The translations under genes and the position numbers were made by a program. A DNA stretch of 58,320 nt. Origin: an uncultured Bacteroidota bacterium. Its GTDB lineage: Bacteria; Bacteroidota; Bacteroidia; B-17B0; Aurantibacillaceae. Below, piece after piece: positions 2,874 through 50,404 of the stretch; the stretch's first letter is position 1; the number at the start of each line of letters is the position of its first letter. The DNA is taken from NCBI GenBank assembly GCA_903893815.1, contig CAITNS010000012.1, forward strand, positions 1 through 58,320. Direction: 5' to 3'. The notes beneath the pieces are model-generated. The model ran no database searches, was not told the DNA's origin, and saw nothing but the letters and a program-made list of their open reading frames with translations.

Positions 2874-3425
2874 ATGTACGGATTAGTAAACAAAGCCATT
2901 CAAGATTTAGTATGCGATAAATTTGGCGATGACAAATGGGCAGAAATAAAAAAATTATCCAACTTTGAAGATGATTTTTTTATTGGACTCCAAGCCTACC
3001 CTGATGCCTTAACTTATTCTTTAGTTCATAATGCTTCAAAAGTATTAGGTGCAGATGCATCGGTAGTAATGGAAACCTTTGGAGAGCATTGGATTTTATA
3101 TACTGCTAAAGAAGGTTACGGCGAAATGCTAGATTTAGCTGGTGATAATTTATCTGAATTTTTAAATAATTTAGATATGTTACATAATAGAGTAAGTAAC
3201 ATTATGCCCGAATTAGTTGCTCCGCAGTTTAGCACCAGAAATGAAACAGAACAATCGATTGAGTTAGAATACAGATCAAAACGAGAAGGAATGGTGCCAA
3301 TGGTTGTTGGCTTATTAAGAGGACTTGGAAAAAGATTTAATAAAGAAAATGTGGTTATTACTCATATTCAGGTAAAAAACGAAATTAATGATTGCCATGC
3401 TTTTAAAATTGAATGGAGTAATTAA
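2874..3425 (+). CDS. H-NOX haem nitric-oxide/oxygen binding sensor
   Basis: 183 residues, the usual size of a stand-alone bacterial H-NOX (HNOB) protein. The proximal haem ligand is His104 (LDMLHNRV), and the diagnostic YxSxR haem-propionate motif is Y133-R-S135-K-R137. The start MYGLVNKAIQDLV is typical. In this family ferrous haem binds NO and the changed conformation inhibits or activates a neighbouring kinase. The gene stop lies 3 bp before a histidine kinase gene, the standard H-NOX/HahK arrangement, so that kinase is the expected target. A small inverted repeat (AACTGT...ACAGTT, 2827-2846) lies in the 56-bp gap upstream. The protein has no transmembrane segment and should be cytoplasmic. 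Confidence 0.95.
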   Translation: MYGLVNKAIQDLVCDKFGDDKWAEIKKLSNFEDDFFIGLQAYPDALTYSLVHNASKVLGADASVVMETFGEHWILYTAKEGYGEMLDLAGDNLSEFLNNLDMLHNRVSNIMPELVAPQFSTRNETEQSIELEYRSKREGMVPMVVGLLRGLGKRFNKENVVITHIQVKNEINDCHAFKIEWSN

Positions 3426-9285: not shown

Positions 9286-12200
9286 CTACTCCGCTATTTG
9301 AACTTGTATATTTTTTACTGAAAAATCTAACTCTATTTTAAAGTAGTTTTCTTTTGGATAATTAATCTGCGCTTTTAACTGTTTGCTTAATGTATTAATT
9401 AAATTTAAACCAAATCCTTTATTATTAATTTTTTCATCTGCATATAAACCTTTTCCAGAATCAGTATAAATGAAATAAACCTTATCTTCTTTTATTTCCA
9501 TGGATATACTAATTTCCAAAAAGTTGTTTATAACGCCATATTTAAAACTGTTGGATAATAATTCATTAAAAATTAAACCAAAGGTTACAGCTTTCGAAAT
9601 ATCTGTATAAATATTTTTTATACCTAATTTAGATTTAAACTGATCGCTGGCCGTTTTGTTAAGTATTCTTCTATGATAATCTATCAACTCTAAAACATAA
9701 TCACCAATGTTAACATTTGAAAACAAAGCGCTTTGATATAATTTTTGATGCACTAAAGCCACTGTTTTTACTCTTGATTGAATTTCAGATAGCGTTTCTT
9801 TTAAATGCAAATCAGGCTCCGTACTTTTCTTTAACTCAACCATACCATCAATTATGGCTAAATTGTTTTTAACGCGGTGATGAATTTCGCCTAAAAGAGT
9901 TTCTTTTTCATGCACAGATTCAGCTAAAAGCAATTCGTGTTTTTTTAAATCGGTAACATTTAATCCGTAACCTATCACTATATTTTCACCTTTAACGGCA
10001 TGAAAGCGACGCTCTTTAAATTCTGTTTCGTTATTATTTTTCAGTTCTTCAAGCCAAGTATAATCTTCTTTAGTAGCAATTAGTTGATTAAAAACTTCTC
10101 TTCTTGATTTAGCAAATGTATCAGGTAAATTTTTCCGTTCAGCATAATCAAAATCATCTTTGCCAATTAACCAATTTCTGGTTTCGTCATCTTTAATTGC
10201 TTTTTTATTCACAAAAATATATTTATGATTTGCATCAAATACGGCAATATCTACCGGAATATTATTTAAAATATTTTCATAAAAAAGTTTTTGATTTAAA
10301 ATCGCATCTTCTTTTAATTTTAGCTGAGTTGTTTCATACCTTATGGCAATATACTGAAATGGTTTACCCTCGCTCATAAATGGTATTATGGTTGATTCTA
10401 CATAGTATTCTGAACCATCTTTAGCTTTGTTTTTAATTTCACCTTTCCAAATATTACCTGATGAAATTGTTTGCCACATATCATTAAAAAATTCTTTTGA
10501 ATGAAATTTAGAATTAATGATGTTGTGATTAGCTCCAATTAATTCTTGTAGCGAATATTTTGAAACTTCACAAAATTTATCATTGGCATAAGTAATAAAA
10601 CCTTTAGTATCAGTAATACTAACAATGGCTGATGAATCAATAGCTGTTTTATAGTTAATCAATTCAAGTTCAGCTATCTTTCTATTTGTAATATCTCCCG
10701 AAATACCTGTCATTAAATAAGGAATGCCTTTTTCATTATTAATAATTCGCGTATTACTAAATATCCATTTTACTTTACCATCAGGAGTAACAATTCTATA
10801 TTCTAAATTAGTTTGTCCAGTTATAAAAAGTGCTTCCGACTCTTTTTCTATCCTTTCTTTATCATCAGAATGAATAACGTCTGACCATAAATTAGAATTT
10901 ACGTGCCAATTTTCTAACGGACGTTCATATAACGAAACAGCAGATTTACTAATATATTCTAATTTATATTCTGGCAAACTCACTCCCCAAACAGTTTCGT
11001 TTAAAGAGCCCATCACTTGCTCCAATTTATCTTTACTTATTTTTAATTCTAGATTTCTATTTTTTTCTTCTAGAGTTATTCTATTAATTTCTGTTACATC
11101 TCTTAAAAAAGAGTTTAATTCAATAAGGTTACTATCTTCAAACTTACAAATTACATTACCTACTACATCTATTTTATTTCCATCTTTACTTATTAAACTA
11201 TAACTTACATCTAGCGTATTTAGTTTCTTAGTATTTAATTCGCCAAAAAAAGTCATACAATGCTCTTGCGAATAAGGATGAACGTAACTAAATATATTTG
11301 TTCCAAGTACTTCTTTTAATGTATAATTTAGTTTATTAAGCCACGATTTATTTGCATACAATATAGTTCCATTTCCATCTAATGATGTTATTAAATCATT
11401 TGTTGTTTGCAACAAATTGCTGTACCGCGCTTGCGACTCAGCTATCCTTTTAAGGTTAACTTGCAACTGATTTTGATTTTCAAGGATTATTCTTTTTTTA
11501 TTTACTAATTGTGTTACATCTTGTTGTATCGCTATAAAATAGAGGAATTCACCATTTTCATCAAAAACTGGATTTACTTGAACAGCAATATGGTATAGCT
11601 CACCATTTTTTTTATAATTTGCTAAAGTAAGTTCAATAGGAGTTTTTGTTTGAATAGCGTTGCGTAATTGACTCGTTTTTTCAGGTTCAGTTTCAGGTCC
11701 TGTTAAAAAACTACCAGGTGTTTTGCCTAAAATTTCGTGTAAATTGTACCCTGTTAAATGTTCAAAATGTTCATTTACCCAAGTTATTTTCCCGTCTTTA
11801 TCGGCATAAATCACATTATTTGGGGTGTGAGTAGCCAAGTAAGAAAGTTTCCTATTTTCTTCGTTTTGTTTTTTAATTAAATTATTTTTATTGATAGCCA
11901 AATAAGCGTTACCGGCTAACGAAGCAAATACCTTTAAAACGGCTAAGTGTTTTTCGTCAAAAGCATGAGGCCTTTCGCTTTGGATACCAAATGCGCCAAT
12001 AATTTTATTGTTTGATGTAACAGGAACGTAAATACGAGAACGTGTATGTGAATTTTTTATTGAATCAATAGAAAAAGGATTATGTTCAACATCCTGATCG
12101 TGTACCCATAAAATTTCTCCAGTTCTAAAAACGTGGCCAGGGTGCCTGTCCATTGCTGTTAATTCAGCATTTGATTTTTCTTCTTCCGAAAAACCTTTGG

Positions 12201-12378
12201 CGTAAAATAACTTTAATTTATGCTCTTCTTCGTTATATAAATAAAGACCTGTCGTATCGTGTTGAGCAACTAACTCAAGTTGAGTTTTAATAGTATCAAT
12301 CAACACTTCCAAACTATCCAAATTAGCAAAACTTTCTACAAATTTTTCAATTTCTGATAGTGTGTTTATTAATCTCAT
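9286..12378 (-). CDS. GAF - multi-PAS HWE/HisKA_2 sensor histidine kinase
   Basis: 1030 residues without membrane segments. An N-terminal GAF domain (about 1-165, with DRHPGHVFRTGEILWVHD) is followed by about five PAS/PAC repeats (from about 175 to 810), recognisable by motifs such as TWVNEHFEHLTGY, ILYANKSWLNKL and TYANDKFCEVSKY. The HisKA_2 H-box GEIHHRVKNNL (His about 833-834) and a HATPase with N-box NELLSNSFKYG, G1 DSGKGL and G2 KGFGLNL complete it. The GAF domain is similar to that of the hybrid kinase at 20093 (shared RHPGxVxR). It is probably a soluble redox or ligand sensor. The gene downstream of the GlcG/HbpS-like ORF is 13 bp away on the same strand, so they may be co-transcribed; a cognate receiver is not adjacent. 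Confidence 0.9.
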   Translation of the reverse strand: MRLINTLSEIEKFVESFANLDSLEVLIDTIKTQLELVAQHDTTGLYLYNEEEHKLKLFYAKGFSEEEKSNAELTAMDRHPGHVFRTGEILWVHDQDVEHNPFSIDSIKNSHTRSRIYVPVTSNNKIIGAFGIQSERPHAFDEKHLAVLKVFASLAGNAYLAINKNNLIKKQNEENRKLSYLATHTPNNVIYADKDGKITWVNEHFEHLTGYNLHEILGKTPGSFLTGPETEPEKTSQLRNAIQTKTPIELTLANYKKNGELYHIAVQVNPVFDENGEFLYFIAIQQDVTQLVNKKRIILENQNQLQVNLKRIAESQARYSNLLQTTNDLITSLDGNGTILYANKSWLNKLNYTLKEVLGTNIFSYVHPYSQEHCMTFFGELNTKKLNTLDVSYSLISKDGNKIDVVGNVICKFEDSNLIELNSFLRDVTEINRITLEEKNRNLELKISKDKLEQVMGSLNETVWGVSLPEYKLEYISKSAVSLYERPLENWHVNSNLWSDVIHSDDKERIEKESEALFITGQTNLEYRIVTPDGKVKWIFSNTRIINNEKGIPYLMTGISGDITNRKIAELELINYKTAIDSSAIVSITDTKGFITYANDKFCEVSKYSLQELIGANHNIINSKFHSKEFFNDMWQTISSGNIWKGEIKNKAKDGSEYYVESTIIPFMSEGKPFQYIAIRYETTQLKLKEDAILNQKLFYENILNNIPVDIAVFDANHKYIFVNKKAIKDDETRNWLIGKDDFDYAERKNLPDTFAKSRREVFNQLIATKEDYTWLEELKNNNETEFKERRFHAVKGENIVIGYGLNVTDLKKHELLLAESVHEKETLLGEIHHRVKNNLAIIDGMVELKKSTEPDLHLKETLSEIQSRVKTVALVHQKLYQSALFSNVNIGDYVLELIDYHRRILNKTASDQFKSKLGIKNIYTDISKAVTFGLIFNELLSNSFKYGVINNFLEISISMEIKEDKVYFIYTDSGKGLYADEKINNKGFGLNLINTLSKQLKAQINYPKENYFKIELDFSVKNIQVQIAE

Positions 12379-12391
12379 ACTAATTTAACTA

Positions 12392-12811
12392 TTAAGCTAA
12401 TATACTTAAAGCAGCATTCATACACTGCTCATCTTGTTTATAATGGCCGCCACTAATACCAATAGCACCCACAATAGTTGCATCAATAGTAATAGGTGAA
12501 CCGCCGCCCAACAAAATAAAATCTTTTAAATTATGAGCGCCATCATTTAAAATAGGATCGTCTTTAATAAAATTATACCAAGCATCACCTGTAGGAAAAC
12601 CAAATCCAACAGCGGTAATGGCTTTTTTACGCGAGGCATCTATAGAAATTAAAGGCGCATTATCCATGCGAGAAAATGCTTTTAAGTTTCCACTTTCGTC
12701 AACAATGGTTATGGCAATAGAAAATCCAATTTCTTGTGCTTTTTTTGTTGCTGCTTCAATCATTTGATTTGCAAGCAATGCAGTAATTGATTTTTTTGTA
12801 AATAATTGCAT
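12392..12811 (-). CDS. GlcG/HbpS-family (DUF336) protein
   Basis: 139 residues matching the GlcG/HbpS family over its whole length: the ATKKAQEIGFSIAITIVDESG start, GG(G)SPI, and IVGAIGISGG near the C-terminus. Family members include HbpS, a haem-binding partner of a two-component sensor in Streptomyces, and GlcG of the glycolate operon. There is no signal peptide, so this one is probably cytoplasmic. It sits immediately upstream of a large GAF/PAS histidine kinase on the same strand (13-bp gap), which makes a haem- or redox-linked accessory role plausible. The function is inferred from context only. Confidence 0.8.
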   Translation of the reverse strand: MQLFTKKSITALLANQMIEAATKKAQEIGFSIAITIVDESGNLKAFSRMDNAPLISIDASRKKAITAVGFGFPTGDAWYNFIKDDPILNDGAHNLKDFILLGGGSPITIDATIVGAIGISGGHYKQDEQCMNAALSILA

Positions 12812-20092: not shown

Positions 20093-21769
20093 ATGTCGAT
20101 TAACATAAAATATGCTGAAAAATTAGAAAAAATCACACAACTAATTTCAAATTCAGATTCCCTTGAAAATTTAGTAGCCAATAGCCAAACTATTATTGAA
20201 AAAATAATCCTAGTTGAACTATCAGGCATATTTTTATATGATAAAAAAAGTAATAAATTAAAATTAATGTCGTACCGAGGTTTTACAAAAGCCGAAAGTA
20301 TTTTAGCAGAAAAATCAGCCCTTGAAAGACACCCAGGTTGGGTGTGTAGAAATAAAAAGCCCATTTTAATTAAAGATACATTAATTGAAAAAAATATAAT
20401 TACAACCGATAGCAAAAGAAGGTGGGAAACCCGTTCGAGAGTTTGCATACCCATTTTAACAAAGCAGGAGTGCATTGGAATAATTACCTTGTCAAGTGCA
20501 AAACCAAATAAGTTTAACAATTACCATGTATCTATTTTAAACTTTGTGGCACTATTGTTTAGTAATGTTTATTTAAATTTAGTGTTTAAAAAAGACCAAG
20601 AAGAAAAACAAGAGAAATTATTAAAATATATAGAAGAAATTAAAAAAACTAAAAAACTGCAAGAACGGTTTTTAGCTAATTTAAGCCATGAAATAAGAAC
20701 ACCGCTAAATACAATTATAGGAATAAGCAACATTTTAAAACTGTCGCCCCATGTTAAAAAGGAACAAGACTCCATAAAAATATTAAGTATATCGTCCGAA
20801 AATTTAAATGGCCTTATAAATGATATTTTAGATTTTTCGAAAATTGAAGCCAATGAACTTAAGTTGGAAATGGAAACAGTTTCTGTTAAAGAAATGATTG
20901 AAAATGCCATATTTTCGTTTAAAGAAAAAATTAATATAAAAAATTTAGAAGTAAACAGTATTTATGATTCCAAATTAAATTTATTACAGTCAGATAAAAT
21001 AAAATTAAACCAAGTTATCCTTAACATTTTATCAAATGCTATAAAATTTACTGAAAATGGAAAAATAAGTTTATCAGTAGATGTATTGAAAGATACCACT
21101 AATACTCAAAAAATAGCAATTGTAGTTAAAGATACAGGCATTGGGATTACCAAAGAAAAAATAGGGATCATATTTGAGCCATTTCAACAAGAAGATAATA
21201 AAATTACAAGAAAATATGGTGGAACAGGTTTAGGATTATCATTATCAAAAAATATTATCAATTTATTGGGTGGCGAACTTGATGTAAAAAGTACAAAAAA
21301 CAAAGGTTCTGAATTTAAAATTGAAATTGAATTAAAAAAAGCAACAAACATTACAAAAAAGAAAAACCTATTACCTAAAAATGAAATAACTGATGTATTA
21401 AGCCAAAACCGAAATATTTTATTAGTAGAAGATGATGATTTAAATATATTTTTAATAAAAAAATTATCAATTTTATGGGGAATAAATGTTGAAATTGCAA
21501 AAAATGGAAAAAAAGCTATAGAAATATTAAAAACAAAGACCTTTGATTTGATTTTAATGGATGTGCAAATGCCTTTAATGGATGGTTTAAAAGCAACTAA
21601 ATACATTAGAGAAAATTTAAAAATAGTTACGCCAATAATTGGTTTAACAGCAAATGCAGTTAAAAGTGACAAACAAAAATGTTTAAATGCGGGAATGACT
21701 GCATATATTACAAAACCCTTTGACGCTGATTATTTAAAACAAAAAATGATAGATTTAATATTAAATTAA
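20093..21769 (+). CDS. GAF hybrid histidine kinase with C-terminal receiver
   Basis: 558 residues. A GAF domain (about 1-165, with LERHPGWVCRNKKPILIKDT) is joined by a coiled coil to HisKA with His199 (NLSHEIRTPLNTI), HATPase (N-box LNILSNAIKF, G1 KDTGIGI, F-box FEPFQQED, G2 GGTGLGLSL), and a C-terminal receiver with acceptor D490 (LILMDVQMPLMDG) and Lys in YITKPF. It is soluble. Such hybrids pass phosphate from His to the internal Asp and then to an HPt protein; the HPt-like protein at 23849 is the nearest candidate. The GAF domain resembles that of the kinase at 9286-12378. Confidence 0.92.
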   Translation: MSINIKYAEKLEKITQLISNSDSLENLVANSQTIIEKIILVELSGIFLYDKKSNKLKLMSYRGFTKAESILAEKSALERHPGWVCRNKKPILIKDTLIEKNIITTDSKRRWETRSRVCIPILTKQECIGIITLSSAKPNKFNNYHVSILNFVALLFSNVYLNLVFKKDQEEKQEKLLKYIEEIKKTKKLQERFLANLSHEIRTPLNTIIGISNILKLSPHVKKEQDSIKILSISSENLNGLINDILDFSKIEANELKLEMETVSVKEMIENAIFSFKEKINIKNLEVNSIYDSKLNLLQSDKIKLNQVILNILSNAIKFTENGKISLSVDVLKDTTNTQKIAIVVKDTGIGITKEKIGIIFEPFQQEDNKITRKYGGTGLGLSLSKNIINLLGGELDVKSTKNKGSEFKIEIELKKATNITKKKNLLPKNEITDVLSQNRNILLVEDDDLNIFLIKKLSILWGINVEIAKNGKKAIEILKTKTFDLILMDVQMPLMDGLKATKYIRENLKIVTPIIGLTANAVKSDKQKCLNAGMTAYITKPFDADYLKQKMIDLILN

Positions 21770-21868
21770 TTACTATTATTGTTCTATTTATGGAATAATT
21801 CAATATTTTCCATATATTGAAAAAAATTATCGTAATGATAGTATTTATATATTAACTTAAATTTGAAT

Positions 21869-23206
21869 ATGGAAATTACATATAAAACTTTTATAGTTGA
21901 AGATGATGTGTTTTTTAACGGTGTTTTGTTAAATAATCTAACATCCAATAACAACCTTCAGTGTAGTAGTTATTTTACAGGAAGTCAAGTAATTAAGAAA
22001 ATCAGCCAAAATCCAGATTTTATAATCTTAGACTATCGTTTAACTGATATGGTTGCTGATGATATTATTGAAAAATATAAATCCTATAATCCTAGTATTA
22101 AAATTATTATTATTTCGTCGCAAACAGATATAAAAGTTGCCACTAGTTTAATTAAATTAGGTGCGGATGATTACATTATAAAAGATGAAAATGCCTTAGA
22201 TTATTTAAATAAAATAATGCAATCGTATATAAAGGAAAAACAATTATTAGAAGAGAATAATCATTTAAAAAATCAATTTCAAAATTTCATTCAACTCGAC
22301 ACTTTTTTAATCGGCAAAAGTCATTCTATATCAAGTATAAAAAAATTAATCATAAAAGCTGCCCAATCGAGTTTAAATATTTCGATAACTGGAGAACATG
22401 GAACAGGAAAAAGATTTATTGCAAAGGTAATACATGTATCTTCAAAACTCTCTCATTTGCCGCTTCATGAAATAGGAGTTCATGATATAGACAATTTTGA
22501 AAAATACATAAGACTAGCAGACAACAAAATTGAAAAGATACCTGAAGAATTAAAAAAACATGAAGCCGGTACATTTTTTATTAACGAAATTTCAGAATTT
22601 ACTATTGATTTACAATCTAAATTAATAAAATTCATTAAAAGTTTAAAAGCAATTCAGCGTCAAAAAGAATATGCTGGAACTAATGCTCATCGTTTTATCA
22701 TAGGAAGTGTTTATGATTTTCAGGATTTACTCAAAAAGAAAAAATTAAATGAAGAACTTTATTTTGAAACTTTAGGATTGAAATTAGAAATCCCTTCATT
22801 AAGATCACGAACAGAAGATATTTCATATATTTCGGAGGAGTTTAAAAATGAATTTTGCAGAAGTAATAATATGGAGAGTAAAATCATTTCGAACGATGCG
22901 AAGAAAAAATTAATGCGTTATAATTATCCGGGAAATATAAAAGAATTAAAAACAATTATTGAATTAGCATGTGTACTATCTGATGAAAATACGATCACAG
23001 AAAATGAAATTATTTTCAACTCTAATACTCAACCAACTTATGATTTAAATAATTCAACTTTAAATGATTTTAATAACCGCTTCATCTTTAATTACCTTAA
23101 AAGAAATGATTTTCAGGTTGTAAAAACGGCAAATGAATTGGGAATTAGCAAAAGTAAAATATATAATATGTTGAAAAATGGAAGTTTTAATAATAATAAT
23201 TATTAA
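21869..23206 (+). CDS. NtrC-like REC - AAA+ - Fis regulator with degenerate ATPase
   Basis: The ATG at 21869 is preferred; a TTG two codons upstream is also open. 445 residues. The receiver has D12-D13, acceptor D55 (FIILDYRLTD) and Lys in YIIKDE. The central AAA+ domain keeps Walker A (GEHGTGKRFIAK), a sensor-like RFIIGS and the LRSRTEDI segment, but the sigma-54 contact loop GAFTGA is absent and Walker B reads GTFFINEISEF, with Asn in place of the usual catalytic Asp. A Fis-type helix-turn-helix (VVKTANELGISKSKIYNML) ends the protein. It probably binds DNA and may bind ATP, but is unlikely to drive sigma-54 open-complex formation. A 99-bp gap separates it from the hybrid kinase. Confidence 0.88.
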   Translation: MEITYKTFIVEDDVFFNGVLLNNLTSNNNLQCSSYFTGSQVIKKISQNPDFIILDYRLTDMVADDIIEKYKSYNPSIKIIIISSQTDIKVATSLIKLGADDYIIKDENALDYLNKIMQSYIKEKQLLEENNHLKNQFQNFIQLDTFLIGKSHSISSIKKLIIKAAQSSLNISITGEHGTGKRFIAKVIHVSSKLSHLPLHEIGVHDIDNFEKYIRLADNKIEKIPEELKKHEAGTFFINEISEFTIDLQSKLIKFIKSLKAIQRQKEYAGTNAHRFIIGSVYDFQDLLKKKKLNEELYFETLGLKLEIPSLRSRTEDISYISEEFKNEFCRSNNMESKIISNDAKKKLMRYNYPGNIKELKTIIELACVLSDENTITENEIIFNSNTQPTYDLNNSTLNDFNNRFIFNYLKRNDFQVVKTANELGISKSKIYNMLKNGSFNNNNY

Positions 23207-23480
23207 TACGGTTATTCATTTTAAAGCTAATATAATGAATAACAGAATTAAGCCCAATCAACAAAATAAGGACGTGCCATTAATAATAAAGGGCAATTTT
23301 TATGAAAATATAGTTGCCCACCTTTTTAAAAAAAATCATGATTTATTCATAAAATTGAGATAGAAACTATTGGTGCTAATTTAGAATATGTAATAAGTAG
23401 CCATTACAAAAGTAAATACCTTCGTATCCGTCATTTCATTTTAAACATACTTAACTAAAGATACCAAAATTTTAATAGGA

Positions 23481-23815
23481 GAAAAATACTTATTGTTTAA
23501 GATCATGATTTTAATAGAGTGTTTTTAGTCAATTTATTAAAACAAAGAAAGCTACAAGTAGATACCTCAAATAATGGGATAAGGCTTTAAACTTATTAAA
23601 GATAAGCACTTACGATCTTATTTTAATGGATTTAAATACACCAAAAATGGATGGTTTTGAAGCAATAGATAAACTCAGGAAGTTATTAAATATAAAAACT
23701 CCCATATTGGCTATTACAGCGCATACGCAAAAAAAGTATATTTTGACTGCTTGAAGATAGGGATGAATGGATGGATTGATAAAAAGCCATTAATCCTACT
23801 CCATTATTTTCTAAG
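23481..23815 (+). pseudogene. Broken receiver-domain gene
   Basis: Conceptual translation gives receiver motifs split by stops and frameshifts: KILIV-stop-DHDFNRVFLVNLLK near 23484, a stop after NNGIRL near 23582, then STYDLILMDLNTPKMDGFEA (acceptor Asp present) and TPILAITAHT, and a final GMNGWIDKKPL near 23763. This is a CheY-like domain of hybrid-kinase type that no longer forms one frame. Immediately upstream, 23207-23480 has only short ORFs and no recognised homology; it may be more of the same dead gene. Confidence 0.75.
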
Positions 23816-23848
23816 ATAAAATACTAAATTATAAAAAACACTAATTAA

Positions 23849-24172
23849 ATGAAAAATAAGTTTGAAAAAATTAATATATCGAGATTAAAAAAAATGGTGC
23901 AAGGTGATGATTTAGTAGCAGATTCACTTATCCTTTTAGTAAAAAATCTAAAAAAAGACGTAACAAAACTTAAAAAAAATTTAGAAAAAAAAGAGTATGA
24001 TAAAATTATCGAACTATGTCACAAAATGAAGTTATCTACCAGCTTAATTTCATTAGATACGATTGAAAATGAAATAAATCAATTAGGAAAAAAAGACCAT
24101 AATTTAGATGAAATTAAATTCATAGAATACACCCAAAAAATAATAAAAGAAATTGAGAAAACAATAAAATAA
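23849..24172 (+). CDS. HPt-like histidine phosphotransfer protein
   Basis: 107 residues, all helical and Lys-rich. The segment ELCHKMKLSTSLISLDTIENEI fits the HPt signature ELxHxLKGSSxxxGxxxL, with the likely phospho-acceptor in the CHKMK motif (about residue 58); the usual Gly-Ser after Lys is altered. It follows the broken receiver by about 35 bp, so it may be the surviving C-terminal piece of a REC-HPt hybrid or a free HPt. It could relay phosphate from the hybrid kinase at 20093. It is convergent with the next gene, with a 9-bp gap. Confidence 0.65.
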   Translation: MKNKFEKINISRLKKMVQGDDLVADSLILLVKNLKKDVTKLKKNLEKKEYDKIIELCHKMKLSTSLISLDTIENEINQLGKKDHNLDEIKFIEYTQKIIKEIEKTIK

Positions 24173-24181
24173 TTTATTATT

Positions 24182-24562
24182 CTATTGCATATCTTTTAAT
24201 AATTCTGTTGTAATCGTTTTCTCTTTAAAACCTTTTATAATTGGATAATTAACTGATTTCAATTTATCTCTTTGGTCGAGAGAGGATGTTACAAAATAAA
24301 TTTTTGAATGTTTAAATATTTCTTCAGGAAACTTCATTAACTCATCAATTAATTCAAAACCATTCATTTCGGGCATCCTAATATCAATAAAAATGAAATT
24401 AGGAAGTTGAATTTTATCATGAATAAGCTCTTTAAGATAGTCTAATGCTTCAATACTTGAACTGTGGCTGATAATTTCAGCAGAAGCATCAACTTGTTTA
24501 ATAACTTCTGAATGCAGAAAATTAAATATATCATCATCGTCAATTAATAGGTACTGATTCAT
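24182..24562 (-). CDS. Stand-alone receiver (REC) of the FIST/NosP set
   Basis: 126 residues, a single receiver of the type common in Bacteroidota: acidic cluster DDDD (residues 8-11), acceptor Asp in FIFIDIRMPEMNGFEL and a Thr/Ser switch in FVTSS. The C-terminal GFKEKTI segment replaces the usual KP motif, keeping a Lys but not the Pro. It lies 113 bp downstream of the multi-PAS kinase on the same strand and is its likely phosphate acceptor. No output domain is present. Confidence 0.88.
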   Translation of the reverse strand: MNQYLLIDDDDIFNFLHSEVIKQVDASAEIISHSSSIEALDYLKELIHDKIQLPNFIFIDIRMPEMNGFELIDELMKFPEEIFKHSKIYFVTSSLDQRDKLKSVNYPIIKGFKEKTITTELLKDMQ

Positions 24563-24675
24563 TTGTTCAAAATAGTTTTTTTATTGATCATAACTTGTCT
24601 CGAACTTGATTCGAAATGATTTACAAAGTTAGTAATTAAGATTTAATTCAATCTTTTTTTTATTGTTTTTTTCTG

Positions 24676-27600
24676 TTACTGTTTTATTTTCGGAATATTG
24701 ATTTCAAAAGTTGTGCCAATATTCAATTGAGATTTTACAGAAATTTCACCATGTAATTTATTTACTATTTCCTTACAAATATATAATCCCAAACCGGTGC
24801 CCCCACTTAATTTAGTTCCTCTATAAAACATATCAAAAACTTTGCCAATACTTAGTTCCGAAATACCCATACCATTATCTACCACAAGCATTTGTATATT
24901 GTCATGAGTTGTATAAATCAAAAATTTAACAAATGAATTATCAATATTATTTCTTTTATATTTTACTGAGTTTCCAATCAGATTTTTGAGTAAGGTATTG
25001 CATCTTTTTTTATCTGAATAAATAATAGGCGAGCCTTGCATATCCATTTCAAAATTTACAGCCATATTATCAGTGAATTTAAGATCTTCGAAAATTAATT
25101 GCACCATTTCTTGGACATCAAACACTTCTAATTCTAATTCGTAACGCGCATTTTTAGAATATTCTAAAATTTCTTGAATTGTGCCATCTAATCTAATAGT
25201 GCTCGTTTTAGCCAAATTTAAATAGTGCGTTATTTTTTCATCTAACAAATTCGTTTTTAAAATTAGTTCTAAAATACCTTTAATTGAAAGCAATGGTGAT
25301 CTTAAATCATGTGATACACTGTACACAAAATTATCTAACTCCGTATTTATTTTCTTTAATTCTTCGTTTTTCTTTAAAACAGATTTTTCAATATTTTTTA
25401 AATTAGTAATATCAACACCTGTAATTATAATATATTCTAAAGTATTATCTACTCTATAATAAGGTAATATACTTCTTAAAATAACTAGTTCTTTATCTTC
25501 CTCGTCTTCTTTTACATTTCGAGACTCTTCAAATTGTATTAGTTTATTATTTTTAATTGCTTCATTAATAAAAGAAGTCAATTTATTTAATCGTTCTGCT
25601 TCAGTAGGATGAAGCGCTGCTAATTCCATAATCGATTTACCCATTGCATTAGCCATTACTGGTTCTCTGTAAATCATTAGCTCGTTTACATAACTAAATA
25701 CTAATTCAGGACTTATAACAGCAATTTTGGCTGGTGAATGATCTAAAATACTTTCATAAAATAATTTTACAGAATTTGTTTTTTCAATAAAACTATCTCT
25801 TTCAACTAATGCCACTTCAAGATTTTTTTGCAGGACTTTAACAGATGTAATATCAAGAAATGCGTTAATATATCCCGAAACATCACCTAGCTGGTTGATG
25901 GCAGGGGCAATTGAAATTAAAAGCGTTACAATTTTATTATCAGCACGTTTAAAATCTATTTCATATACAGAACGACCAATTTTAGTATAAGATAAAATAA
26001 TTCCTAGCTCTAATTTTTGTTTCAAGTCGCCTTCCATATCGCCTGAAATAAGTAATAAAGTAGAATCTTCTATCAATGTTAATTCGATGAATTTTTGATT
26101 TTTAAATACAATTTCACCTTCAAGATTAGATTCGATTAAACCGATATTAATATTTTCGATAATACCCCGGTATTTTTTTTCGCTGGCAATTAATACTTTT
26201 TGAGAAATATCGCGTTCAAATGCATTTGAAACAATTCCTGAAATAGTTTTTAATAACTCAAGCTCCAATTTCGACCATTTTTTATGCGTAAAACACTCGT
26301 CAAAACCAATATATCCATAGTAAAAGCCATTAACATATAATGGATAAATTATTAATGATTTTATATCCTGCGGCTCTAACACCGCCTTTAAATCATCGGG
26401 CAGGAAAGATATATCATCTGAATAAATAAAACCATGTTCAACTAATAGTGGTTTAAACGAAGGAATTATTTCATAAGGTATATTTTGTAACTCATTTATT
26501 TGAGGAATTACATTTTTATTACACCACTCATAGGTATTAGAGCAGTAGGCAGAATTTTCAGTGTTTTCGAACACATAAACTCTACTAACATTCATATGTT
26601 TTCCTATTTGATTTAAAACAAAATTAATTCTTGAATCAAAATCGGTTAAACTATTTAACCCTAAAGAAACTTCGGATAATAATTCTTGTTGTTTTAAATT
26701 TTGTTGGAGCTGTAATTTATTTAACCGTTCTTCGGTAATATCAATAGAGCTACCTATCAGTCGTAATAATTTACCTTGCTCATCGCGTTCGGCAATGGTA
26801 TTATCTCGTACTATCCTAACCTCGCCGGTATCATTTTTAATAATACGATATTCATATTCTATAATTTCTTTACCGGAGTTTATTAATTCATCCTTTTTTG
26901 AATTTACAATATCCCAATCCTCAGGATGTACCGATTTTTCCCAAAATCCTTCAAGATTTTTATCCGTACTTTTTTTACCATATTGTTTAAGAATAACATC
27001 ATTAAAAATCACTTTACTGGTTTTTATATCTAATTCCCAAATCCCAATATTTGATTTAGTTGTGATTAATTCGAAACGAGCGTTAATTCTTTGTAATTGT
27101 TTTTTAGATTGTATCTCTTCTGTAATATCTTTTTGTAGAGAAATAAAATTTATGTGATTACCATCAGAATCAAACACAGGCATTATTTCCAATTGATTGT
27201 AGTATAATTTACCTGCTTTATTGTGATTAATAATCGTTAATTCTATATTTTCCTTTTTTGCTAACGCACTAGCTAATTTTTTTAGTGCAGTAGAATCGGT
27301 TTCTTCACTCTGTAAAAAATCTTTTGGTTTTTTGCCTTTTACCTCATCTAATGCATATCCAGAAATAGCTGAGAAAGCATCATTTACCCATTCAATTCTT
27401 CCTTTATTATCAGTAATAATAACGCCGTTTTTAGTTTTAGTAGCAATGAGCGATAATTTTTTTAATTCAACCTCTGATTCAGAAATTTTAATAATTTGCT
27501 CCTTGATTTTGTCATTTTTTTCTCTGTTAGCAAACAAAGATTGTACTTGATGTGACAATATACTGAAAATGGTTTCATGCTTACTTTGTAATTGGTCGTA

Positions 27601-28122
27601 AATTGGAGCCTTTTCGATGGAGATAAGACCTAAAATACAAAATGAATATCCCAATTCCTTTTCGTAATAATGAAAAAATAATCCGCTTGAAAAATTCTTA
27701 AACGTTTTATAGTTTATAAAAACATCAGCAGAAAGTATAGTTGCTTTTCCTAATGGTTTGTTATTGCAAAGTAGTTCTAAATCCTCAATATAGTTTGGTT
27801 TATTAAAATCATTTATCGATAAACCCTCTTCATGTAATAGCGAATGTGTGGCATCTTCATGATCTTTAAAATATACCAAAGACGATTCTATCTCTAAAAT
27901 ATCAATAACGGATTCTGTTATTAATCTTACTAAATTTTGTTTAGAAGACTCCTTTAGAGCTTGAGTATTAAATTTTTGTAATCGTTTATAAAGTAGTAAC
28001 TCACTATCTAACTTATCTTGAGTGTTGATGAGTTGCTGCTCAATATTAGAAAATTGAGTTACACGTAACTGTAAATCATGATAATCTTGTAAGAGTTTTT
28101 CGTAATCTTTTTGACTATTCAT
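24676..28122 (-). CDS. Multi-PAS/GAF sensor histidine kinase next to FIST sensor
   Basis: 1148 residues, no membrane segment. An N-terminal coiled coil and GAF-like region (to about 200) are followed by PAS/PAC repeats (about 220-460: EWVNDAFSAISGY, WELDIKTSKVIF, PAC RLIGSSIDITEE), a GAF domain (about 475-640, with SLIIYPLYVNGFYYGYIGFDE), two further PAS domains (about 650-910), HisKA with His938 (YSVSHDLRSPLLSIKG) and HATPase with N-box LLKNLIGNSVKYK, G1 VDNGMGIS and G2 GGTGLGLYI. It begins 86 bp after the FIST gene and precedes a lone REC gene. In NosP systems the FIST protein controls an adjacent soluble multi-PAS kinase, and this arrangement matches. Confidence 0.9.
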   Translation of the reverse strand: MNSQKDYEKLLQDYHDLQLRVTQFSNIEQQLINTQDKLDSELLLYKRLQKFNTQALKESSKQNLVRLITESVIDILEIESSLVYFKDHEDATHSLLHEEGLSINDFNKPNYIEDLELLCNNKPLGKATILSADVFINYKTFKNFSSGLFFHYYEKELGYSFCILGLISIEKAPIYDQLQSKHETIFSILSHQVQSLFANREKNDKIKEQIIKISESEVELKKLSLIATKTKNGVIITDNKGRIEWVNDAFSAISGYALDEVKGKKPKDFLQSEETDSTALKKLASALAKKENIELTIINHNKAGKLYYNQLEIMPVFDSDGNHINFISLQKDITEEIQSKKQLQRINARFELITTKSNIGIWELDIKTSKVIFNDVILKQYGKKSTDKNLEGFWEKSVHPEDWDIVNSKKDELINSGKEIIEYEYRIIKNDTGEVRIVRDNTIAERDEQGKLLRLIGSSIDITEERLNKLQLQQNLKQQELLSEVSLGLNSLTDFDSRINFVLNQIGKHMNVSRVYVFENTENSAYCSNTYEWCNKNVIPQINELQNIPYEIIPSFKPLLVEHGFIYSDDISFLPDDLKAVLEPQDIKSLIIYPLYVNGFYYGYIGFDECFTHKKWSKLELELLKTISGIVSNAFERDISQKVLIASEKKYRGIIENINIGLIESNLEGEIVFKNQKFIELTLIEDSTLLLISGDMEGDLKQKLELGIILSYTKIGRSVYEIDFKRADNKIVTLLISIAPAINQLGDVSGYINAFLDITSVKVLQKNLEVALVERDSFIEKTNSVKLFYESILDHSPAKIAVISPELVFSYVNELMIYREPVMANAMGKSIMELAALHPTEAERLNKLTSFINEAIKNNKLIQFEESRNVKEDEEDKELVILRSILPYYRVDNTLEYIIITGVDITNLKNIEKSVLKKNEELKKINTELDNFVYSVSHDLRSPLLSIKGILELILKTNLLDEKITHYLNLAKTSTIRLDGTIQEILEYSKNARYELELEVFDVQEMVQLIFEDLKFTDNMAVNFEMDMQGSPIIYSDKKRCNTLLKNLIGNSVKYKRNNIDNSFVKFLIYTTHDNIQMLVVDNGMGISELSIGKVFDMFYRGTKLSGGTGLGLYICKEIVNKLHGEISVKSQLNIGTTFEINIPKIKQ

Positions 28123-28208
28123 GTTTACAAAGTTGCAGAATGTTAATAGACTTTTTTTATTTTATCTACTACTTCTGTTACGTATTTTTTTAACATAAAA
28201 TTAAAATA

Positions 28209-29393
28209 TTATCGATAGATAACATAAAGTGCCGTTGTGTAATTATGATACTCGTTTTTTCCACCTAATCTTGCAAATTCACCAAAACCATACATACCTA
28301 ACCATGGTGGGCAATTGCCATCAACGTAAAAAGGATTTTGCATTTTACTAACCAATTCTTCTTTTATAATTCTATCAAATAAAAATCTTCCTCTAGCTAA
28401 ACAATCGGCATGAAAAACAGCTACAGGAGTTTTTCCATTTGCACGTTCATTCATAACTTTTACCATACGATCCATTTCACTAAAAATTAGCTCTTCATCT
28501 CGTTTAGTTAACCATAATTCTGTTCCAATAGGGCATTGAGTTGCATAATACATATTATTACCATCATGCTTTGTTACTACTCTCAAAATATGATTATTAC
28601 CGTATTCTTTTGCTAACTCTGGCGATAACTTTTCGCCTAAAGCACCAACAGGAATGGAATCACCACAAGTGGCAGTTTCAGGTAAACCAAGACGTTTGGT
28701 GTATTCTTGCCAAGCTGGTTTTCCGTTAAACTCCTCTATAATATGTCCGTTTGATTTTGTAACCACTAACGGTTCGCCTACTGCTACAAATCCATGTGTT
28801 GCTTGCGTATCTATCGTTAAAGTTGGATCAGAAAACCCTACAGCATATGCACCGTGTTCAAAAACTTTATCATCAACTGCTTGAAAACTGATAAAGCCTT
28901 TCATATTGTCTGATGATGTTGCACCAAAAATAGTAACCTCCGGACCAAAAACTGACTCAAATGCTTTGATACATAAATCATCGGCGATATCAATACCAGA
29001 AGCTAAAAAATAAATCATATTAATGTCGGGCGATTGTTGCTTTAAAGACTGAGCTATTTCTAATGTTTTTTCATAAGAATTATGCCCAAAAATAGTATCT
29101 ACATGAGCAACAGCAAACTCTTTTCCTTTAACGGCCATTAATGCTATGTCTTTCATTGATTCGCTGACACCTTCTCTTCCAACCACACCACAACAAGATG
29201 CTGCTAATATTTTAGCCTTAGGAGCCATTTCTTTTGCTTGTTGAATCAATTCTAGAAAATTGTGCCCTATTGAAGCGTGAAGGATAATTAAATCGCAATC
29301 AGAATATGAATCGCCTAAAGCGATTTCCATACATTCTGTAACACCGCGCTTGGTATTAATAACTCTGGCACTTGCCGAATGAAAACTTAACAT
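28209..29393 (-). CDS. nosP: FIST-domain sensor, NosP-like
   Basis: 394 residues covering FIST_N (about 30-205: LIILHASIGHNFLEL, ILAASCCGVVGREG, IFGATSSDNM) and FIST_C (about 225-390: WQEYTKRLGLPE, PVAVFHADCLARG, MYGFGEFARLGG, YTTALYVIY). Proteins of this family called NosP bind haem and NO and regulate a co-cistronic histidine kinase. Here a multi-PAS kinase follows 86 bp downstream on the same strand, then a receiver. Haem binding is inferred from the family; I could not assign the ligand residue. Other FIST proteins sense small molecules such as amino acids, so NO is the likeliest but not the only ligand. Confidence 0.82.
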   Translation of the reverse strand: MLSFHSASARVINTKRGVTECMEIALGDSYSDCDLIILHASIGHNFLELIQQAKEMAPKAKILAASCCGVVGREGVSESMKDIALMAVKGKEFAVAHVDTIFGHNSYEKTLEIAQSLKQQSPDINMIYFLASGIDIADDLCIKAFESVFGPEVTIFGATSSDNMKGFISFQAVDDKVFEHGAYAVGFSDPTLTIDTQATHGFVAVGEPLVVTKSNGHIIEEFNGKPAWQEYTKRLGLPETATCGDSIPVGALGEKLSPELAKEYGNNHILRVVTKHDGNNMYYATQCPIGTELWLTKRDEELIFSEMDRMVKVMNERANGKTPVAVFHADCLARGRFLFDRIIKEELVSKMQNPFYVDGNCPPWLGMYGFGEFARLGGKNEYHNYTTALYVIYR

Positions 29394-48797: not shown

Positions 48798-49805
48798 TTA
48801 GGGTTGGCTAATTCTATTTATTCTTGTTTGTAACTCCATTATCCGTTTGATTAAGTTATCAAATTTTAAAGGTTCACCATAAATCATAAAACTTGTCATA
48901 GTTTCATAATCTTTTTCGTAATCTTTCATTACTCCGTCTGGTGGTATTATTCTGATTTTACTTGGGACATGATTAGCATAATCAAGTCCTCGTAACGGAT
49001 TAAACTTTTCTCTATGAGCAACAATGTTGTTATAAAGGTCTGTGTTTCTAAAAGCTGCTATTCCGTGTTCAGTGTCCATCAATTTTTCCAAGTCATACAT
49101 GTGTCGTGAAAGTCTGTAAATACGGATTTTTTCAACGCTCTGTGAAAACTCTTCGTGCAGCAAAAATGCTTTTTCTAAAAAAGTTCTTTGTGGAAGCACA
49201 GTTGCTATTGTAAATGGTGCAGTTGTAAAATTTTGTTGTGAAAAATTGTCGCTTAAAATTGAGTTGATTTGCCTTTCCTCAATGGGTTCCATTAATGATC
49301 GCGAACTTACTTCTATCAAAACTCTTTGCGGTAAATATTCCGATGTATCAATCACCGAATTATAATAAATTTCAATTACCTGTGGGTCTTTATCTGAATC
49401 TTTTACAGGTTGAGCAATTAGTTTACATTCATCAATTGCTTTCCATTCGGTCAGCATTTTGGTCAAGTCATTAATGAAAGTTGTTGATATAAATTCACAA
49501 GATTGTTTCCTTAGATTTTTGATTTGAGTTTTACTAATGTCGCCATCAAATCCAAAAAAATTTCTGTTGATTGCCAAATCAATATCTTCTGAAAATCGTT
49601 CTATCAAATTCCAACCTTTGCTTAATGAAGTTCCACCTTTGAAAACAATATTTTTGCTGTATGGCAATGAAAAAGATGCGTTCAATGCTAATGTTACCCA
49701 CCAATCTTTTTCAATTGCGACTGATGGCAAACCAGTTAGTTCTGTTGCCTGATTAAGAATTTCAATTCTTCTCTCTTTTGTTAATGTTAGCCAGTTGGTA
49801 TTCAT
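48798..49805 (-). CDS. abiEii: AbiEii-type nucleotidyltransferase toxin
   Basis: The frame extends to an ATG at 49838, but the ATG at 49805 overlaps the antitoxin stop as ATGA and starts MNTNWLTLTKE, so it is preferred; 335 residues. The nucleotidyltransferase signature is present: IVFKGGTSLSKGWNLIERFSEDIDLAI (GG-S and D-x-D metal site). AbiEii toxins add nucleotides to tRNA acceptor stems or other targets and stop growth, giving abortive infection against phage. The antitoxin gene is directly upstream. Both genes look intact, in contrast to much of this island. Confidence 0.9.
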   Translation of the reverse strand: MNTNWLTLTKERRIEILNQATELTGLPSVAIEKDWWVTLALNASFSLPYSKNIVFKGGTSLSKGWNLIERFSEDIDLAINRNFFGFDGDISKTQIKNLRKQSCEFISTTFINDLTKMLTEWKAIDECKLIAQPVKDSDKDPQVIEIYYNSVIDTSEYLPQRVLIEVSSRSLMEPIEERQINSILSDNFSQQNFTTAPFTIATVLPQRTFLEKAFLLHEEFSQSVEKIRIYRLSRHMYDLEKLMDTEHGIAAFRNTDLYNNIVAHREKFNPLRGLDYANHVPSKIRIIPPDGVMKDYEKDYETMTSFMIYGEPLKFDNLIKRIMELQTRINRISQP

Positions 49806-50404
49806 ATTATCGTTTGTATTAATAATTTGTTTATCCAAGCTGGTGCAAGTTTGGCATCGTTTATTATATTTTCTGATTTCTCTTTTTTGAGTAGCATTTG
49901 AATTTTCAATATTATCCCATTATCTACTTTTGATTGACCAATCGTTTTAAGTGCTTGAATTACCAAACCACTTATTTCACCTTTTGCCAATAAGTTTTTT
50001 GGACTTGTTTTTTTAAATGTAATTGTTCGTTTTCCAACCTTTATAATTCTTGCGGCTCCATCTGTTAAATAAACAACTTTCATAGGAACTTGGCTTGATA
50101 ATCCCAATTTATTTAATGCCTGAACTCCTGTCAAAATAATTCTTGCTTTGTCTCGCCTTGCAATTGCTTTCGCTATATCTTCGGTTGATGGAAATAAAAC
50201 TCCAAATTCTTTGTCAATTTTTGGATATAAATAAATGCCGTGAGCTAAGCGAACAAGTATTTCCTTTTCTTTTAATCTTAACAAGGCTTTTTTTACGCTT
50301 TCGGGATTACCATAGTCTAAGAAGTCGTCCACAAAAAGAACACTTCCTTTTCGGTATGATTTCAGCACTTTAGCAATCTTATTTTCTACTATTGGTCGTT
50401 CCAT
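49802..50404 (-). CDS. abiEi: AbiEi-like (DUF6088) antitoxin and autoregulator
   Basis: 200 residues. An N-terminal winged helix (about 10-60: SVLFVDDFLDYGNPESVKKALLRLKEKEILVRLAHGIYLYP) is followed by the AbiEi antitoxin domain (DIAKAIARRDKARIILTGVQALNKLGL, VVYLTDGAARIIKVGKRTI). Proteins of this family neutralise AbiEii and repress their own operon by binding inverted repeats. A long inverted repeat that overlaps a promoter element lies 51 bp upstream of the ATG. It overlaps the toxin gene by 4 bp. Confidence 0.9.
   Translation of the reverse strand: MERPIVENKIAKVLKSYRKGSVLFVDDFLDYGNPESVKKALLRLKEKEILVRLAHGIYLYPKIDKEFGVLFPSTEDIAKAIARRDKARIILTGVQALNKLGLSSQVPMKVVYLTDGAARIIKVGKRTITFKKTSPKNLLAKGEISGLVIQALKTIGQSKVDNGIILKIQMLLKKEKSENIINDAKLAPAWINKLLIQTII

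Follow-up and report, generated by a model that had tools for sequence, protein, structure and literature searches.

The 58,320-nucleotide contig CAITNS010000012.1 of an uncultured Bacteroidota bacterium (Aurantibacillaceae), hereafter the window, encodes on its minus strand a three-gene operon in which a stand-alone FIST protein is followed by a multi-PAS/GAF histidine kinase and a single-domain receiver. Judged by its sequence, this FIST protein is a member of a branch separate from the FIST proteins of NosP type, and we refer to it as FIST-B. With a probability of roughly 0.6 we favour an explanation in which FIST-B would serve as a soluble accessory sensor of a small bound ligand; docked on the N-terminal module of the cytoplasmic kinase next to it, FIST-B would alter kinase activity, and the kinase would pass its phosphoryl group to the lone receiver. 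Such a scheme would work like NosP-NahK-NarR or NosP-NosK-NosR, although this branch is a separate one, has a partner module of its own and lacks a cyclic di-GMP output domain in the operon. The elements concerned are the following.

28209-29393, minus strand: FIST-B, a stand-alone protein of 394 residues with FIST N and FIST C domains, a putative accessory sensor (from Pfam, the tree and the fold).
24676-28122, minus strand: multi-PAS/GAF histidine kinase of 1148 residues, immediately downstream of FIST-B (Pfam; orthologues lie behind FIST-B in the relatives G015, G014 and G004).
27448-28122, minus strand: N-terminal module of that kinase, 225 residues, predicted partner module of FIST-B (common to 11 of 11 FIST-B partner proteins).
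24182-24562, minus strand: single-domain receiver of 126 residues, predicted output of the kinase (Response_reg; motifs kept in the orthologues).

The original prediction had read positions 24,182 to 29,393 as a FIST protein, a multi-PAS kinase and a receiver, and both the open reading frames and the Pfam results agree with it. FIST-B is a member of the FIST domain proteins, with PF08495 (FIST, 1.7e-25, 90.5 bits for a cut-off of 23.2) and PF10442 (FIST_C, 1.8e-10, 41.5 bits for a cut-off of 28.5) both above the Pfam cut-offs; the kinase carries PAS, GAF, HisKA (1.5e-10) and HATPase_c (2.8e-19) domains, and the receiver matches Response_reg (2.7e-10). The kinase is called soluble in the sense that no membrane domain is found among its Pfam results. 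The three genes are separated by gaps of 86 and 113 bases, and their order is kept in the same-genus relatives G015, G014 and G004; therefore, the arrangement is not a matter of chance. The same order is also present, besides these relatives and the window's own genome (G000), in G085, G318 and G087, and in all 11 genomes with FIST-B the distance to the next gene is between -28 and 86 nucleotides. The receiver motifs IDDDD, DIRMPEMNGF and VTSS are unchanged in the orthologues of the three relatives. A scan of the window for promoters and terminators returned fewer sites than shuffled sequence did. As a separate observation, the identity between the window kinase and that of G015 (L033 14162-17635) is uneven, as if mosaic: 1.00 in alignment columns 151-250 and 901-950, 0.62-0.82 in columns 251-450 and 0.70-0.80 in columns 951-1150.

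FIST-B orthologues are 85-99% identical in G004, G014 and G015 and 44-77% in seven further genomes of the class, which with the window's own makes 11 genomes altogether; the class sample contained FIST-B in 8 of 395 genomes, the next matches being only 21-27% identical. Identity to FIST proteins of NosP-type operons is 17-27%. Among the window's own genome and 40 relatives, FIST occurs in 16 of 41 and H-NOX in 10 of 41, and the higher-scoring FIST proteins of the relatives mostly resemble those of NosP-type operons. A search of 316 genomes of the phylum found FIST-B in G000 and G085 only, which adds little because the rows listed belong to the same class. In a 42-row tree FIST-B forms a single clade on a long stem (support 100/99), and a 95/92 branch divides it from the 27 NosP-type rows; the NosP reference in this tree is a stand-in, the FIST-kinase-REC/GGDEF/EAL operon (REC, receiver) of Legionella wadsworthii, rather than an experimentally characterised NosP. 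This operon is of the same type as nosP-nahK-narR of L. pneumophila (PMC11237717). FIST-B scores 33 bits against the NCBIfam NosP equivalog NF041558, below its cut-off of 450, as do both NosP-type proteins tested (82 bits for G015, 65 bits for L. wadsworthii), so this model is too narrow to decide alone. A sequence search of the PDB with the FIST protein gave one chance match only. The earlier description of this protein as NosP-like therefore survives in part: like NosP, it stands alone and shares an operon with a soluble kinase (solubility from Pfam only) and a receiver, in an order kept in relatives, but it is not NosP proper, as it falls outside the NosP-type rows of the tree and its partner lacks the usual NosP-type module, the presence of which is a criterion of our own. 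A straightforward NosP was accordingly rejected on the separate clade, the NF041558 score and the other partner module.

FIST-B is also paired with a partner module. The first ~220 residues are common to the proteins encoded directly behind FIST-B in 11 of 11 genomes; nine of these proteins carry HisKA and HATPase_c, one (G284) is cut by a contig end and one (G065) is without a kinase domain. Beyond this module the partners differ, those of G025 and G329 carrying only HisKA-HATPase. The window copy of the module had no Pfam match at an E value of 5, and a profile of it found eight places in the 395 class genomes at 1e-4, all of them behind FIST-B; as all eight were in the profile, its absence elsewhere is the informative part. 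Distances among FIST-B proteins correlate with those of the module (r 0.88) and with those of the kinase core (0.72), in both cases with relatedness not removed. We also observed that the partner in G065 (L184 2470-3573), which is followed by a receiver-LuxR gene, retains the module without a Pfam kinase domain; therefore what stays constant in the partner is the module, not the kinase.

Proteins behind NosP-type FIST genes start with a different stretch.

L038 7720-7972, L071 7174-7425, L126 7142-7393 and others: N-terminal stretch of ~80 residues without a Pfam family, behind NosP-type FIST genes.

It heads kinases, SpoIIE proteins and GGDEF-EAL proteins in several phyla. Its profile matched 88 places in the 395 class genomes at 1e-4 (at least 3 of them in proteins used in building it; 14 weaker matches, with E values of 2.6e-4 to 9.4e-3, are excluded from the counts), and 70 of the 88 are directly behind a FIST gene on the same strand. 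The underlying alignment comprises 19 of the 22 listed partners of FIST proteins other than FIST-B; C_G004, C_Azo and C_G025 were left out, the last having no clear module by eye, and partners truncated at a contig end (G011, G037) were not included either. Gene order was examined in 16 of 80 FIST loci, and for seven named genomes, two of which are in the profile, our own arithmetic places 7 of 8 modules directly behind FIST, assuming contig identity. The window's own genome contained no match to this module at 0.01. Sequence comparison thus suggests that each FIST branch seems to come with its own cognate partner module, on which the FIST protein would dock.

Twenty-one residues, C331, R334, H383 and N384 among them, do not vary across the 11 FIST-B proteins and occur in 95% or more of 65 aligned NosP-type rows, whereas H44, H200, H328 and W228 are invariant specifically in FIST-B. 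H383, within HNQT, is present in 11 of 11 FIST-B and 65 of 65 NosP-type rows and is the sole invariant histidine they share; a role as haem ligand is therefore possible but not indicated. The axial haem ligand of NosP was not stated in those parts of the literature that our search covered. The AlphaFold model of FIST-B (pLDDT 80, pTM 0.86) is best matched by FBXO22 (8s7d, 8s7e, 8ua3, 8ua6; Z 20.1-20.8, root mean square deviation 3.5-3.7 over 264-277 residues), followed by chorismatase (Z 15.4) and cyanuric acid hydrolase (Z 12.7), fold neighbours that act on chorismate and cyclic amides. FBXO22, which unlike FIST-B is a eukaryotic ubiquitin-ligase receptor and only 12-14% identical to it, binds a protein through its FIST domain in humans; the study of it lists these fold relatives too and saw no obvious ligand pocket (PMC11185555).

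Several observations weigh against the explanation of FIST-B as an accessory sensor with a dedicated docking module. The window kinase has PAS and GAF domains of its own, which may be the main sensors, and, as the FIST domain of FBXO22 lacks an obvious pocket, FIST-B may be an adaptor that only binds protein. Common descent also accounts for the shared gene order. The partner in G065 has no recognisable kinase, and the modules of G025 and G329 share only 19-21% identity with the window module. Regarding the NosP-type module, 18 of the 88 places are not directly behind FIST (6 in genomes without a FIST match and 12 in genomes with FIST elsewhere; 2 of the 18 start less than 250 bases from a contig start), 55 of 125 FIST places, 8 FIST-B included, have no such module behind them, and the NosP-type FIST genes of G040 (L052) and of a Legionella anisa plasmid (L066) are without a same-strand partner behind. 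In the tree, two other long FIST rows (the second copy in G025, and Sulfurovum) fall among the NosP-type rows, so that the NosP type needs two changes, and two long rows (G012 and Roseomonas) join the FIST-B side.

Systems in which a stand-alone FIST protein acts as accessory sensor and its gene accompanies those of a kinase and a response regulator have been described in L. pneumophila (NosP-NahK-NarR, encoded by nosP-nahK-narR) and Burkholderia pseudomallei (NosP-NosK-NosR) (PMC11237717, PMC12570481). FIST-B differs from both in its separate clade, in a partner with another N-terminal module and in its lone receiver, theirs being a response regulator with a cyclic di-GMP-related domain; its haem or nitric oxide (NO) binding is only putative. 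NosP (VpsV)-VpsS-LuxU of Vibrio cholerae likewise has a FIST protein encoded with a cytoplasmic kinase, but VpsS is a hybrid kinase feeding LuxU and the window kinase is non-hybrid (PMC6769237, PMC4398556). The same-genus genomes G014, G015, G004 and G010 hold NosP-type operons that share the order FIST-kinase-receiver and differ in a kinase of HisKA_2 type (by Pfam for G015, by similarity for the others) starting with the ~80-residue module; the FIST protein of G015 is 25% identical to that of the window. In G014, G015 and G004 these operons lie beside H-NOX or beside genes that flank H-NOX in the window, where the FIST operon is ~21 kb away from the H-NOX gene.

2874-3425, plus strand: H-NOX (HNOB 8.9e-49).
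L038 5939-9108 (G015), L039 13979-17474 (G014) and L037 9781-13750 (G004): NosP-type FIST-kinase-receiver operons near H-NOX or similar flanks.

We take the YRSKR of the window H-NOX to be the YxSxR motif and LDMLH to hold the candidate proximal histidine. As predicted, this gene comes with its own GAF/HATPase kinase-like gene and two receivers; the proposal that both sensors build an integrated NO-signalling locus finds only partial support. FIST-B does not depend on H-NOX, which is present in 5 of the 11 FIST-B genomes and has no match in 6 (G284 is 80% and G015 87% complete); of 20 same-genus genomes, the window's own included, four contain FIST-B, five H-NOX and three both. In G015 at least 46 kb separates the two loci, and in G014 they fall on separate contigs, the ends of which would fit the order of genes in the window. 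The neighbourhood being partly conserved in the genus, there is some room for a functional link, yet FIST-B signalling is probably separate from H-NOX. The NosP-type FIST gene lies 1.5 kb (G015) and 3.2 kb (G014) from H-NOX, and this operon is a better candidate than FIST-B for the proposed NO link; in G004 a NosP-type FIST gene, ~20 kb from FIST-B, has similar REC-SpoIIE and kinase genes next to it but no H-NOX. No NosP-type operon was found in the window's own genome, where the FIST search gave one FIST protein and the module search none. An assembly gap was possible because the window is a whole contig starting where the operon lies in G014, but the next gene after the operon in G014 has its counterpart within a different contig, of which the 15.9 kb read matched neither FIST nor the operon; a hidden operon was thus rejected and loss is the likelier explanation. 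Two further observations concern this region: the HisKA_2 kinase at the contig start (1-1655) is short (334 residues compared with 455 in G014), its frame remaining open further upstream by eye, and at 9286-12811 an HbpS-like gene of the haem-degrading family directly precedes a PAS/HisKA_2 kinase, in G014 too, as a possible accessory sensor-kinase pair.

Between the two loci lies a histidine phosphotransfer (HPt)-like gene with the following neighbours.

23849-24172, plus strand: HPt-like protein, convergent to the FIST operon and judged outside it (HKMK site; context in G004).
23465-23821, plus strand: decayed receiver domain, likely a hybrid-kinase remnant (tblastn).
21863-23206, plus strand: REC-AAA response regulator of sigma-54 activator type, likely partner of the HPt (Pfam; adjoins the HPt in G014, nearby in G004).
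20093-21769, plus strand: hybrid histidine kinase with a GAF domain and a C-terminal receiver, likely the kinase that feeds the HPt (Pfam; conserved in G014, 74%, and G004, 56%).

The prediction of a free HPt-like protein between the loci holds as regards its phospho-acceptor site, HKMK (in ELCHKMK), kept in 3 of 3 orthologues, but not as regards Pfam Hpt (PF01627), which matched neither the window nor the G014 copy; the G004 orthologue reached 13.0 bits (E 0.13, cut-off 24.6), and the C-terminal end of an ArcB model matched the HPt-like protein at 6.8e-4. In G004 the orthologue overlaps a hybrid kinase (L036 15072-17687) by 4 bases, and the decayed receiver is most like that of this kinase, its two longest pieces, of 68 and 40 residues, being 51-52% identical, with stops and frame changes. 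These findings fit an HPt belonging with the neighbouring hybrid-kinase/sigma-54 system at 20093-23206. Elsewhere in the window (48798-50404) an AbiEii-type gene adjoins a DUF6088 gene, likely as a toxin-antitoxin pair. A Por_Secre_tail match, at 23.2 bits short of its cut-off of 27, is no more than a hint of Bacteroidota.

Three other explanations have to be weighed. That FIST-B senses NO through bound haem, as a divergent NosP, and controls its kinase in parallel with the H-NOX pathway seems unlikely to us: its operon logic is that of NosP systems (PMC12570481, PMC11237717), it keeps the only invariant histidine of the NosP-type proteins, H-NOX shares its region in the window and its genome in three same-genus cases, and FIST proteins are named among the neighbours of one H-NOX group (PMC8738867), but the clade, the partner module, the NF041558 score (with the reservation made above) and the FIST-B genomes without an H-NOX match speak against it, and H383 is not diagnostic of haem because its motif is common to NosP-type proteins at large. 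Haem or NO as the ligand is possible yet doubtful, and another small molecule, or none, is fairly likely. That FIST-B is instead a non-sensing structural adaptor scaffolding or localising the kinase, with signals entering via PAS and GAF, we hold to be clearly improbable. The pocketless, protein-binding FIST domain of FBXO22 would agree with it, as would the greater conservation of FIST-B relative to module and kinase core in every window pair compared, expected of an interaction hub; against it, the FIST-B kinases of G025 and G329 are without a PAS domain in Pfam, which leaves FIST-B or the module as the sole input in them, and evidence exists for haem or NO binding by other FIST proteins (PMC8846402).

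Convergence of the H-NOX and FIST-B kinases on the HPt at 23849, with shared receivers, was the weakest part of the original prediction and is very improbable. The HPt is placed between both loci, and NosP-VpsS-LuxU and NosP-NahK-HptB relays have been described (PMC6769237, PMC12997753), but the FIST-B kinase lacks a built-in receiver domain through which an HPt could be fed, the HPt is convergent and stands beside a hybrid kinase and the REC-sigma54 gene, and the G015 stretches read, which reach a contig end, contain no HPt orthologue. The HPt was discarded as a hub of both kinases after the decayed hybrid-kinase receiver was found beside it.

According to a 2022 review, little is known about substrate binding and onward signalling of FIST proteins (PMC8846402). 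The two N-terminal modules without a Pfam family, one per FIST branch, are testable candidates for FIST-kinase contact sites. It is tempting to speculate, if only tentatively, that FIST proteins are interchangeable soluble sensor subunits plugging into effectors via dedicated N-terminal docking modules, those of NosP type via one ~80-residue module that kinases, SpoIIE phosphatases and GGDEF-EAL proteins of different phyla carry, and FIST-B via an unrelated ~220-residue module, and that FIST-B senses something other than NO. The FIST-B branch warns against labelling every FIST-kinase pair an NO sensor.

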